Source: Glycomyces buryatensis
GTDB taxonomy: Bacteria > Actinomycetota > Actinomycetes > Mycobacteriales > Micromonosporaceae
DNA: 64,000 nt
Assembly: GCF_004912275.1 (NCBI RefSeq)
Contig: NZ_STGY01000009.1
Location: 1-64,000, forward strand
Reading direction: 5' to 3'
Made by a program: the position numbers and the translations under genes. How positions within the stretch are numbered: position 1 is the first letter of the stretch; every line of letters starts with the position of its first letter. Under the pieces are notes generated by a model. It made no database searches and was not told the origin of the DNA. It saw nothing but the letters and a program-made list of their open reading frames with translations. Positions 50,831-60,537 of this stretch are shown here, piece by piece.

Positions 50831-52438
50831 TCACCACTGCGAGCGCGATCCGTCTCGGACGGCTGCCTGCAGCCGTTCGATGTGCTTGTCGAGGTTCTTG
50901 ATCTGCGTTGAATCAGGACCGAAGGCGTCTGCGAGCAGCGGGCGGACGGCCTCGAACTCGGCCAGGGCCTCGTCAGGGCGTCCGGTGGCCGCCAGCATCT
51001 GGGCGACGAGAAAGCGCGAATCTCGGAACTTGGCCGCCTCCTCCTCATTCCCTCCTGGGTCGGCGTTCTGCACGTAGAACCGCAGATGCGGCAGCGCCTT
51101 CTCGGGTTTGCCGGTCTCTGCGAAGGCATGGCCCGCATGGTAGGAGCAGTCGAGGACGTAGGTGTCGGTCGGAGGAAGGAACTTGCGGAATTCGCGTCCG
51201 ACCTTTTCGAACAGCGAGGCCGCACGGGTGTACCTGCCGTCGATGAACAGTGCTGCGCCCAAGGCGCGGCGCAGCAGCAGCGCCGCGGCCGGGTCGGGCC
51301 CCCCGCGCTCGACGGCCTCCTCGAGGAGGCCGATGGCCTCCGATACGACGCCTTCCTCGAGCAACGTCTCGACCTCTCGGTTCAGCTTCGCGGCCTCGAG
51401 CTCGGTGAGCGCGGGCTTGTCCTCCGCCGTCTCGCGGGTGCGGGCGGTGGTCAGGAGCGGACGGCGGAACGGGCGGGTGGGGTCGCGGCGCTCCGGACCG
51501 GTCCAGACGGCGTCGACCACGTCGACCGTCGTCATCAGCGGCAACAGCGCCTCGTAGACGGTCTCCGCGCTCGGGCGATCGCCCGGCTCCTTTTCCAGCA
51601 TCGAGGACACCAGCTCGTCGACGGCCTCGGGAACGTCCGAGCGTTCGGCCCGCGCTGAAGGAGCGGGCGCGTGCAGGTGGTGCGTGCGCAGCTCGACCCC
51701 GCCGGTCTGATGGAACGGCACATCGCCGGTGAGGAGCTCGAAGAAGAGGCAGCCGAGCGAGTAGACGTCCGAAGCGGCCGTCACCGCCCGTCCCTGGCAC
51801 TGCTCGGGCGACATGTACGCGGGCGTGCCGACGGTCCGGTCGACCTGGGTCAGCCGCGGCAGCGCTCCCGCGCCGTGCAGGATCGCGATACCGAAATCGA
51901 GGACCTTCACCAGGCCGCCGTCGACGATCATCACGTTGGCCGGCTTGATGTCTCGGTGGACGATGTCGAGCTGGTGGACGTCGGCCAGGACCGCTGCTAT
52001 CTGAGCGGTGATCGAGGCCGCCCACACCACGCTAGGCGCGCCGGTCTCGTAATCGGCGCCGTCGAGCACGGTCTCGAGCGTCGAGCCGCGCAGCAACTGC
52101 ATGACCAGCCACAGCCTGGTACTGCCGTCCGGGCCGAGCTCGACGTCGGTGTCGTAGACCGCCGGTATGCCGGGATGCTCCAGCCGGGCAGTCGTGCGGA
52201 TCTCGCGGAGGAACCGCTGGCGGTCGCGGTCGATCGCGTCGAGGATCTCGACAGCTTCGGGGCTGTCCGGGGCCGCCGGGGTCGCCACCGGCCGCATCAG
52301 CTTGATCGCCACACGACGGTCGAGGCGCTCGTCGTAGCCGTGGAAGACCTCGCTCATGCCGCCGTGGCCGAGCAGGCCGCCCACGCGGTACCGGTTGGCG
52401 AGTCGCCATTCGTCGCCCGGCTCGGTGCCGTTTGCCAT
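50831..52438 (-). CDS. soluble Ser/Thr protein kinase with TPR-like C terminus
   Basis: The 535-residue protein has a complete Hanks-type kinase domain: LLGHGGMSEVF (glycine loop), VAIKLM (catalytic Lys), HRDIKPANV, LDFGIA and GTPAYMSPEQ. Residues 345-520 form repeated helical pairs of TPR type (ALFIDGRYTRAASLFEKV, KPEKALPHLRFYV, GRPDEALAEFEAV). There is no transmembrane helix or PASTA sensor, unlike PknB. Its start lies five bases after the hsdR stop, so it is probably the fifth cistron of the restriction operon. Kinases occur in phage defence (PglW, Stk2), which makes a defence role plausible. Confidence 0.85.
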   Translation of the reverse strand: MANGTEPGDEWRLANRYRVGGLLGHGGMSEVFHGYDERLDRRVAIKLMRPVATPAAPDSPEAVEILDAIDRDRQRFLREIRTTARLEHPGIPAVYDTDVELGPDGSTRLWLVMQLLRGSTLETVLDGADYETGAPSVVWAASITAQIAAVLADVHQLDIVHRDIKPANVMIVDGGLVKVLDFGIAILHGAGALPRLTQVDRTVGTPAYMSPEQCQGRAVTAASDVYSLGCLFFELLTGDVPFHQTGGVELRTHHLHAPAPSARAERSDVPEAVDELVSSMLEKEPGDRPSAETVYEALLPLMTTVDVVDAVWTGPERRDPTRPFRRPLLTTARTRETAEDKPALTELEAAKLNREVETLLEEGVVSEAIGLLEEAVERGGPDPAAALLLRRALGAALFIDGRYTRAASLFEKVGREFRKFLPPTDTYVLDCSYHAGHAFAETGKPEKALPHLRFYVQNADPGGNEEEAAKFRDSRFLVAQMLAATGRPDEALAEFEAVRPLLADAFGPDSTQIKNLDKHIERLQAAVRDGSRSQW

Positions 52439-52443
52439 GGGCC

Positions 52444-58765: not shown

Positions 58766-60537
58766 AGTTCGCTCGTCTCACCTTCGGTGCTGTTGCCGGT
58801 CTTCTGCTGTGGGATGAAGTCGGGTGCCACGGCCCCTGTCGTGAGGCCGTGAATCGTCTGGTCTATGAGGCTCGCGCTGATCCGCGCCAGCGCCGCCAGC
58901 GCGGCTTGGAGCCCCTGCAAGTGGCGAAACGCGTCGCCGTATCGGCGTTGCTCTGCGTATCCCACATCGGGGATGAGGCACCGCCGCAGGTCTTCTCGGC
59001 TGATCGCTCCGAGTGTATTGGCCACCGGCAGCGAGTGGGAGTCGGCTTGCAGGAACCCGGCGAGGAAGTGCGAATCCAAGCGGGCGGGGTCGACCTGGAC
59101 CACATGAGCGACGCCGGATTCGTCGGCCTCGGTTCCGGCCGCGACGGCCGGTGGCCTGCCCAAGGTCCGCAGGAGCAGGTCACCACGACGTGGGGTGGTT
59201 TCGCGCGAGCGAATCCGCAGCGCCCCCAGGCGTTCCATTTCTCCAATGCTCACATAGGAGCGTCGCGGCGGCGAGGTCGGTGAGGTGAACCGCGGCAGGC
59301 CTTCGCCTATGCGTGAGTACAGATCCCGCAACCGGTCGGTGACCTGGTCGAGCTCGGCGGCACTGGCTTTGGCGCGCACGGCGAGATGACGTGACGGCCG
59401 GAGATCGGTGTCGCCGGTGAGCAGGTCCGGGCGTGGGACCGAGCGGATGATCGTCGGGTCCGGATTGCCGAACAACCGTTGCCACGCCCCGAACTCGTGC
59501 GGAACTTCGGCGGGATCGCTGAGCGCGGACAGGTCAATCATGCGTACGGTTGGCGCGTCGGTGGAAGCGGGGAGGCGTTGCAGCACCCAGAGGCATACTT
59601 CTGAGTTAGGGCGGGGTCCGATTCCCTTTGGCAGCGTGATCACTTCGCGCAGAGCCCCGGAACGCACCAGGCCCGCGCGGACGTCCCGCCCCGAGCTTTC
59701 GGTGCAGGTGCGAGGGGACACCGCGATGACCGCCACCCCATTTGGCCGCAGATAGGCATAGCTGTGCGTGACCCAGGCCAGCTCATGGCCCTTCGCGCCG
59801 GGTACGCCGAACTCCCATCGCAGGTCGGCGGGGAGATCGATGGTTTGTCCGGTTCGCTTCCGTTGATCGGCGGGCACTTGGCAGAGCACGCCTGCCGCCG
59901 AGCCTCGATGTGCGCGGAGACGGTTATCCGTCAAAGAGTTGCCGACTTCGATCTCATACGGGGTGGCGTATGGGTTCTGGCGCAAGAGCATTGTGGCGGC
60001 AGCGGCGCCGACCTCTTCGCTTTCCTGCCCGGCCAAGCGGACATGCTCGCCGAACCGATCGGCAGCGGCCATCAGCAGCGTCCCGTGAGAGCCGGCGGGG
60101 TCCAGCACCGTGGGGGCGTCGGCATCGTCTTTGATGACCGGCTCCTCGGCGGCCGTCGAGCGCGGCAACAGCGAGGCCATTGCCTTGGCCAGCAACTCGG
60201 CTGGGCTCAGGTCCGTTATCCCGCGTTCCGACAGGCGACGCATCCGCTCGTCGTAGCGCTCCTCCTGGGAGTTCGGCGAGCTGACGACGTGTCCAGTGCC
60301 GGTGTCTGTTTGACCGGCCGTCGCAAGTTGGTGGCCCTTGCCGGTCGCCAGCAACCAGGCCTCGACCTCCTTGCGAGAGAACCTGGGGCTCGTGGGGCTG
60401 CCGCCGATCGGGCGGGGGAACTCTGGGTAGCGACGCCGCCAGTTTGAGACGGCCGCCCGCCCGACGCCGACCATCCGCGCGATGGCGGCGGCCGTCAGCT
60501 CGTCAGGGTCGTCGGGGATCATGGAGGGACTGTACAT
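58762..60537 (-). CDS. HTH protein with degenerate N6-methyltransferase domain
   Basis: The protein (591 residues from the ATG at 60537) starts with a helix-turn-helix (TAAAIARMVGVGRAAVSNWRR). It continues with a fold like HsdM, but motif I reads LDPAGSHGTLL instead of DPACGSG. Where NPPF should be, the sequence is VLCQVPAD. It is therefore unlikely to methylate DNA. The C-terminal half resembles a specificity-type recognition domain. It is the first gene of the restriction operon and is coupled to hsdM. I infer a regulator or an accessory specificity factor. Starts at TTG 60558 or ATG 60522 are also possible. Confidence 0.75.
   Translation of the reverse strand: MYSPSMIPDDPDELTAAAIARMVGVGRAAVSNWRRRYPEFPRPIGGSPTSPRFSRKEVEAWLLATGKGHQLATAGQTDTGTGHVVSSPNSQEERYDERMRRLSERGITDLSPAELLAKAMASLLPRSTAAEEPVIKDDADAPTVLDPAGSHGTLLMAAADRFGEHVRLAGQESEEVGAAAATMLLRQNPYATPYEIEVGNSLTDNRLRAHRGSAAGVLCQVPADQRKRTGQTIDLPADLRWEFGVPGAKGHELAWVTHSYAYLRPNGVAVIAVSPRTCTESSGRDVRAGLVRSGALREVITLPKGIGPRPNSEVCLWVLQRLPASTDAPTVRMIDLSALSDPAEVPHEFGAWQRLFGNPDPTIIRSVPRPDLLTGDTDLRPSRHLAVRAKASAAELDQVTDRLRDLYSRIGEGLPRFTSPTSPPRRSYVSIGEMERLGALRIRSRETTPRRGDLLLRTLGRPPAVAAGTEADESGVAHVVQVDPARLDSHFLAGFLQADSHSLPVANTLGAISREDLRRCLIPDVGYAEQRRYGDAFRHLQGLQAALAALARISASLIDQTIHGLTTGAVAPDFIPQQKTGNSTEGETSEL

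Follow-up and report, generated by a model that had tools for sequence, protein, structure and literature searches.

We analysed a stretch of 64,000 nt from Glycomyces buryatensis (contig NZ_STGY01000009.1, positions 1 to 64,000; hereafter the window), and in it a five-gene operon at positions 50831 to 60537, in which the genes of a type I restriction enzyme (hsdM, hsdS and hsdR) stand between a gene for a methylase-like protein and a gene for a Ser/Thr kinase. The first protein, called here HTHMT, is a fusion of a helix-turn-helix (HTH) domain, an N6-methylase or pseudo-methylase and one half of an HsdS. We observed that gene content and gene order of the operon are conserved, and that HTHMT, hsdM, hsdR and the kinase gene have a common history which hsdS does not share. 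Many actinobacteria carry such a restriction locus, opening with a DNA-binding methylase-like protein and closing with a soluble signalling kinase, as predicted for both. The reading that we favour, and to which we give nearly but not quite even chances, is that a complete type I enzyme is controlled by the two proteins HTHMT and kinase, and that this controller is portable.

The window operon and its relatives

All five open reading frames (ORFs) of the operon are on the minus strand; two upstream sequence features are listed with them.

58762..60537, minus: gene 1 (HTHMT), ORF; Pfam N6_Mtase, with HTH_23 below cut-off
56789..58765, minus: hsdM; HsdM_N and N6_Mtase; PADLOC MTase_I, 827 bits; DPACGTGG and NPPF seen in the translation
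55593..56792, minus: hsdS; two Methylase_S stretches (two specificity-domain matches)
52444..55596, minus: hsdR, nuclease-motor subunit; HSDR_N, SWI2_SNF2 and T1R_D3-like, above Pfam cut-offs
50831..52438, minus: Ser/Thr kinase, predicted soluble, with C-terminal TPR domain; Pkinase and several TPR models (Pfam)
60564..60599, minus: candidate operator, palindrome TGTGAAC-N22-GTTCACA with internal GTCAACA; sole match in the genome
60536..60545, minus: second exact half-site TTGTGAACAT, at the start of gene 1

The first-pass annotation of this DNA had described five coupled genes with three 4-base overlaps and one 5-base gap, and the junctions, read directly from the sequence, are just these. 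The stop codon of gene 1 overlaps the GTG of hsdM by 4 bases (58762-58765), the 4-base overlaps of hsdM with hsdS (56789-56792) and of hsdS with hsdR (55593-55596) both read ATGA, and the kinase ATG (52438) follows the hsdR stop (52444) after a gap of 5 bases. Gene 1 may start at the first ATG, at 60522 instead of 60537, as judged by eye from relatives that begin just ahead of the TAAAIAR stretch; a promoter scan gives no support to this start. Rfam models had no match in the window at gathering scores.

The restriction enzyme is complete as far as sequence can tell: HsdM has S-adenosylmethionine-binding and catalytic motifs, HsdS has two recognition domains, and HsdR has nuclease and motor domains, with SAGSGKS and DEAH invariant among 17 aligned sequences. 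The window HsdM scored 84 of 243 bits with the NCBIfam hsdM equivalog, which indicates a divergent lineage; the window HsdR scored 180 of 285 bits with the NCBIfam hsdR model, under the cut-off.

For the genome survey, 394 genomes of the class were searched with two queries; HsdR matched in 51 genomes at 1e-60, gene 1 in 84 at 1e-10. The stretches around HsdR matches were retrieved, some of them ended by contig edges, and were joined by named GTDB loci (the best 80 of 585 relatives). The dereplicated set comprised 129 loci, divided by a gap between 1228 and 1444 in the score of an HsdR profile that had been seeded from operon-type HsdRs. With the cut placed at 1300, 74 distinct loci had a close hsdR and 55 a more distant one. 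A locus was counted as testable for the kinase if at least 3000 bases were present downstream or a kinase was detected, and as testable for HTHMT if HsdM was detected with more than 1500 bases ahead of it or HTHMT was detected; both rules slightly favour positives.

With these rules, loci with a close hsdR had the kinase gene on the same strand within 6 kb 3' of hsdR in 67 of 72 testable cases, and HTHMT upstream in 66 of 67, with a distance to hsdM of at most 150 bases in 64 of the 66. The distance from hsdR to the kinase was below 300 bases in 46 of the 67 loci and 300-6000 bases in 21. The five testable loci in which the kinase was missing were L164, L086, L152, L066 and L169; in L169 a kinase sits further away. 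Among loci with the more distant hsdR, HTHMT was found in 0 of 39 testable loci, and three kinase matches were found in 43 (55, 93 and 121 bits, the first two weak). The 121-bit kinase, in L121, belongs to a decayed copy of the window operon type, which fell into this group owing to an HsdR fragment. On a tree of 127 HsdR rows, the label 'with kinase or HTHMT' needed 2 changes, compared with a mean of 41 after shuffling. The 50 named loci with a close hsdR are all from Actinomycetota (11 families, 17 genera). Among 13 members of the window's genus, gene 1 was present at this strength in the window's genome only, with a paralogue of ∼30% identity in six others; the operon looks accessory there.

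Pairwise protein distances across 51 complete operons were mutually correlated among HsdR, HsdM, HTHMT and kinase, with r of 0.89-0.95 (HsdR-kinase 0.95, HsdR-HsdM 0.93, HTHMT-kinase 0.92, HsdR-HTHMT 0.91). The HsdS distances had r of 0.11-0.14 with the other four proteins (0.11 with HsdR). Thus, the specificity subunit is swapped and the rest, including the kinase, stays together. A chance neighbourhood of the five genes is rejected on the basis of the locus counts, the 2-change HsdR tree and the distance correlations. The first-pass annotation had proposed a coherent locus and a search of genomes for its gene order; the counts above are the outcome of such a search, and they uphold the proposal.

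These correlations bear on a different role for the kinase, in which it would directly restrain or license HsdR or HsdM, as a restriction alleviation shielding a host whose own sites are unmethylated. The HsdR-kinase co-divergence is in line with it, and hsdS changes freely, so that fresh specificities would endanger the host. However, the HsdR-HsdM correlation is similarly high for other reasons, and members of the kinase family are also found with DISARM and at loci that lack HsdR, so HsdR is not a constant partner of the family. We regard direct restraint as distinctly unlikely.

HTHMT and the upstream palindrome

Profile comparison assigned the middle part of HTHMT to HsdM (probability 99.7) and the C-terminal part to a half of HsdS (96.9), with the HTH ahead of both. 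An AlphaFold model (mean pLDDT 84, pTM 0.67) had HsdM 3lkd as the best VIA-align match (Z 28.4, root-mean-square deviation 2.5, 264 aligned) and the M1M2S complex PacII as the best Foldseek match. The HTH is the most conserved part of the protein (mean identity 0.63), followed by the methylase (0.48) and the half-S region (0.33), and it stays constant in a family whose catalytic motifs decay.

The window HTHMT lacks motif I and motif IV, as the first-pass annotation had stated; DPAGSHG and CQVPA stand in their places. The label of a degenerate methylase that was given there holds for this copy and fails as a trait of the family, since motif IV in the form [DNS]PP[FYW] is present in 31 of 63 restriction-linked HTHMTs and altered in 32 (one 'lost' row, L181, is an artefact of ORF calling). 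General degeneracy is therefore excluded. In the window's own HTHMT group the motif was retained in 0 of 15 rows, as read from the listing. Outside these operons, it was kept in 4 of 22 HTHMTs that have a kinase beside them, the others having HPPF or HPPY, and in 12 of 22 without a kinase neighbour. HTHMT homologues were absent from a phage collection at 1e-10.

The retained motifs and the PacII match could mean that HTHMT acts as an additional modification subunit, the M2 of an M1M2S-type enzyme such as PacII, instead of a regulator. Against this, the window copy lacks the catalytic motifs, HTHMT occurs without HsdM and HsdS, and its half-S region shows almost no covariation with HsdS (r 0.14). 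This region follows HsdR (r 0.89) and so does not track the target of the enzyme. A modification subunit has, in our estimate, very little chance of being the right description.

Upstream of gene 1 in the window lies the palindrome listed above; the pattern TGTGAACN{8,24}GTTCACA has a single match in the 5.8-Mb genome, at 60564-60599. The half-sites TGTGAAC/GTTCACA recur upstream in relatives. We used 48 upstream stretches, leaving out 20 loci without an HTH anchor; the motifs were picked after inspection of the same sequences in which they were then counted. With this qualification, at least two half-sites were present upstream in 11 of 13 loci of the window's group (against a mean of 0.33 after shuffling and 1 of 13 in a control stretch), and a second form of the element, GTGAAAGCACTGTCAAAC, was present upstream in 28 of 35 other loci (control 0 of 34). 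Outside restriction operons, the first form stands ahead of HTHMT in 17 of 22 loci with HTHMT and kinase, mostly one Streptomyces locus of close relatives. In 45 loci that lack HTHMT, the sequence ahead of hsdM gave 1, 0 and 0 on the three element measures.

Similar sequences were seen ahead of other systems that carry the kinase. In DISARM loci L283, L284 and L286, which have both HTHMT and kinase, a like palindrome CTGTGAAC-N3-GTACACAG lies upstream of drmA, with 15 of 20 positions matching; in L289, a locus of a second type I lineage with HTHMT, an exact TGTGAACA lies ∼140 bases ahead of the hsdM ORF. We take the element in the DISARM and second type I loci as a lead only.

Elsewhere in the window's own genome, contig C70 and contig C60 hold relatives of these genes. 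On C60 (L004:11226-16954) a paralogous HTHMT and a related kinase lie ∼2.5 kb apart on the same strand, and restriction genes were not seen beside them in this stretch. On C70 (L124:10530-10799) the final 90 kinase codons are found, with 74% identity to the window kinase; the remnant adjoins what by eye appears to be a piece of a DUF5753 gene and is perhaps a relic of a lost related operon.

The kinase family and the proposed control module

The catalytic residues of the kinase (K46, H161-R162-D163 and D181) are invariant in 25 aligned members. Its AlphaFold model (mean pLDDT 87, pTM 0.88) consists of a kinase domain and a helical C-terminal domain, with PknB kinase domains as the best Foldseek matches. 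A membrane helix is not evident: the highest mean in a 19-residue Kyte-Doolittle scan, a simple hydropathy measure used without a dedicated membrane predictor, was 1.90 at residue 169, within the kinase core. The Pfam TPR models, this maximum and the helical domain of the model agree with the earlier description of TPR-like repeats and no membrane helix.

A census was done with a profile of the C-terminal part of the kinase (at least 96 bits; 197 genomes, 15 candidates scored per genome); it overlooks some true kinases, such as that of L068, a short unlisted ORF. The 38 matches comprised 11 in operons of the window type, one on a split contig, 10 beside HTHMT without a close HsdR and 16 unassigned by position. 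The first-pass annotation had regarded a kinase usually found without restriction genes as a point against its proposal, and this is partly the picture: 26 of 38 matches were outside these operons versus 11 (and the one on a split contig) inside. In a plasmid collection no homologue of the C-terminal part was found at 1e-10.

Sixteen of these loci were retrieved: 15 of the 16 unassigned ones (the 16th, L123, is a fragment) and one of the 10 adjacent to HTHMT. The kinase had the DrmA-DrmB pair of DISARM beside it in six of the 16, with DrmC in four and HTHMT in four; the DrmB and DrmC profiles were partly seeded from the loci they label, and PADLOC labels cover two of the DISARM loci, the others being labelled by our own profiles and a DrmA search. 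In L276 the DrmB and HTHMT matches fall within a single ORF of 1311 residues. The L280 kinase is absent from the profile listing of DISARM and type I loci, though another scan of the same locus shows it. In two more of the 16 loci (L270 and L272) the kinase stands beside a second type I HsdR and a YgjP-like protein. The gene order in L222 is M-S-R-YgjP-HTHMT-kinase.

The DrmA search in the 197 genomes gave 26 loci after merging of 28 rows. The six closest (at least 65% in the main piece; the query is included and all were known beforehand through their kinases) each have the kinase. By position, no kinase row scoring 96 bits or more lies near any of the remaining 20. A close DrmA without kinase was not found among the 26 loci. 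On a tree of 92 kinase rows, separation of the 63 restriction-linked kinases from the rest took 5 changes, at least 2 of them forced by well supported branches; this indicates that the kinase was recruited more than once, or was lost.

In Streptomyces-type genomes (f21/g28) the HTHMT-kinase pair recurs at one chromosomal spot; in L251 its neighbours are mfd/TRCF-like, GmrSD_C-like, GNAT, SurA-like and MazG genes. In L251, where the pair lies at 4792-9277, the kinase ORF is extended at its N-terminus by ∼220 residues that match no Pfam model; in L119 and L120 this extension is a separate gene. The second type I lineage (L222, L270 and L272) carries a gene for a YgjP-like metallopeptidase before the kinase, with HTHMT present in L222. 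The DISARM subclade with this kinase family (L274-L276 and L278-L280) has in some loci a further gene, matching the UvrD-type protein of L268; L219 and L268 are locus names that also denote two single-sequence profiles.

The same pair thus has other partners than the type I enzyme of the window. One could think of the kinase as a backup effector, which phosphorylates host proteins and halts growth when restriction fails or is inhibited, with HTHMT otherwise silencing the locus. In favour of this, the kinase gene closes the five-gene operon, members of its family are found at type I and DISARM loci (at four of these with no HTHMT in the retrieved stretch), and Stk2 of Staphylococcus epidermidis offers a precedent, as reviewed in PMC12926258. 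Still, the same family stands beside HTHMT at the recurring Streptomyces-type spot, with mfd-, SurA- and MazG-like genes as neighbours in the scanned locus, and there a regulator fits better than a toxin. As HTHMT is the constant partner in most but not all kinase loci, the backup effector stays a serious rival, though we place it on the unlikely side.

The reading that we favour, a type I enzyme under an HTHMT/kinase controller, would work as follows. HTHMT would bind the palindromic element at the promoter and repress the operon; its methylase and half-S parts would form a sensing and dimerising body in which catalysis is dispensable and, in the window copy, lost. The cytosolic TPR kinase would signal that infection or DNA stress is under way; its most likely target would be HTHMT, or a complex containing HTHMT, and phosphorylation of this target would relieve or reset repression. 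The kinase signal would thus set when the restriction genes and any cargo are expressed or active, HsdRMS would carry out restriction, and the whole, we infer, would defend against phages. That the HTHMT-kinase pair is also found with DISARM, and at loci that have no restriction genes, speaks for a controller of general use. More tentatively, and with rather less confidence, we suggest that HTHMT and TPR kinase form a portable module for immune control in actinomycetes, in which a repressor derived from a methylase is paired with its kinase. This module would have been recruited separately by two type I lineages and a DISARM subclade. A related operator would stand at the promoter whichever gene leads, and one pathway would switch chemically different restriction systems.

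A number of observations weigh against this reading. As for the element, 20 HTHMT loci without a kinase neighbour had neither form at threshold (at least two half-sites in three of them); the element accordingly accompanies kinase-linked HTHMT, not all HTHMT. A third type of recognition helix, in 5 of 55 restriction-linked loci, satisfied no element measure. Co-evolution of helix type with element type was dropped as an argument, because two helix changes and two usable pairs give a test no power; the association amounts to effectively one evolutionary event. A sigma-70 scan of 60480-60700 found no promoter. DISARM locus L282 has HTHMT and kinase and no palindrome in 5 kb, drmA there following an ORF of 1374 residues. 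DISARM loci L281 and L285, with kinase and no HTHMT seen, had element scores of 14 and 13; against 15 with HTHMT, the score alone barely discriminates. Second type I loci L287 and L288, with no HTHMT seen, also have similar CTGTGAAC or CTGTGAAT half-sites.

As for the two proteins, the kinases of L278 and L279 (DISARM) and of L270 and L272 (second type I) have no HTHMT in the retrieved stretch, which means that an adjacent HTHMT cannot be the target in every case. Conversely, 22 of 44 HTHMT loci outside restriction operons have no same-strand kinase neighbour by the rule of our script. Methylase motifs persist in about half of the restriction-linked HTHMTs, and these proteins may be active. 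Finally, 16 of the 67 close-hsdR loci with the kinase have an opposite-strand ORF, as called by a rough ORF caller, between hsdR and kinase; together with the 21 loci where the kinase is 300-6000 bases off, this means that co-transcription is not general.

Known systems and neighbouring genes

The nearest published kinase-plus-methylase system, absent from the comparisons made in the first-pass annotation, is the methylation-associated defence system (MADS), whose genes are reportedly mad1-mad8. The window operon resembles it in having small HTH, methylase, specificity-like and kinase genes, with partial matches to the mad1, mad2, mad5 and mad6 models. The MAD2 and MAD6 models gave 46 of 720 and 136.5 of 460 bits, both under the curated cut-offs, and on this ground membership in MADS is rejected; the operon also differs in having a classic HsdR. 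Other mad models had no match at 1e-3 among the matches listed for five operon and four flanking proteins, the listing covering the best 25 families for three of these proteins. Among the matches listed for the same nine proteins there was none to DrmA, DrmB or DrmC, and membership in DISARM is rejected, although one DrmA subclade bears the same kinase family, with HTHMT in four of six loci. PD-T4-6 is a single-gene kinase defence; the window kinase domain matches its models with up to 270 bits, and differs in being encoded by the last gene of a five-gene operon instead of standing alone. MADS is treated in the review PMC12904381.

Pgl, or BREX type 2, likewise combines a methylase with a Ser/Thr kinase in actinobacteria, according to PMC4365076. 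The PglW model gave 49.8 of 990 bits, on which membership is rejected, and the window has an intact HsdR; PglZ and the BREX ATPase had no match among the matches listed for the operon proteins. BREX-related systems were compared through PMC12839542, and PMC12926258 and PMC12707154 served as further comparison literature.

A further comparison is with the RptR-controlled type I islands (RRDM) of Escherichia coli, where, as PMC12255303 describes, the leading gene codes for the regulator RptR, its repeats lie at the operon promoter and cargo lies between hsdS and hsdR. The window operon has a candidate regulator gene first and repeats on the upstream side of this gene. RptR is a four-helix protein of 79 residues, and the candidate here is a methylase-like fusion of 590 residues with an added kinase; DNA binding has been demonstrated for RptR only. 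RptR, as described there, is the published example of a type I island repressed by the product of its first gene, by a repressor whose release mechanism is unknown; how restriction islands stay restrained and are released on infection is, in that text, an open question. In the operons analysed here, the probable repressor comes with a kinase of its own and the two are found again beside various effectors, which makes the control of restriction islands a testable question. Relatives of HTHMT and kinase beside other defence genes suggest a reusable control unit for bacterial immunity. If this holds, a role could be proposed for a methylase-like family that is common in actinomycetes, and likewise for the recurring Streptomyces-type gene pair. 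Among the open-licence papers listed in searches on restriction-plus-kinase and MADS-like systems and on S. coelicolor locus tags, no title or displayed abstract text describes this operon, in agreement with the earlier remark that this gene order with a classic HsdRMS was not a recognised one.

In other loci, cargo genes separate hsdR from hsdS on one side or from the kinase on the other; among ten proteins scanned there were AAA_21 with DUF4276, an SNF2 helicase, GmrSD, RhuM and HATPase_c_2. In loci of at least 15 kb, AIPR genes were present within the stretch examined in 17 of 65 loci with a close hsdR (the window included) and in 0 of 39 with the more distant hsdR. The window has an AIPR/AbiU-like gene at 47140-49269 (plus strand), on the 3' side of the operon and opposite to it. 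Directly 3' of the kinase, at 49459-50244 (minus strand), is a gene for a fusion of a RAMA domain with an MGMT-type DNA-binding domain, which matches the PADLOC candidate PDC-S14. Upstream of gene 1, a SWIM zinc-finger protein is encoded at 60677-62302 (minus strand) and matches the PADLOC candidate PDC-S62. Further away, at 23522-28435 (plus strand), the window encodes a DUF3686 ATPase of 1637 residues.

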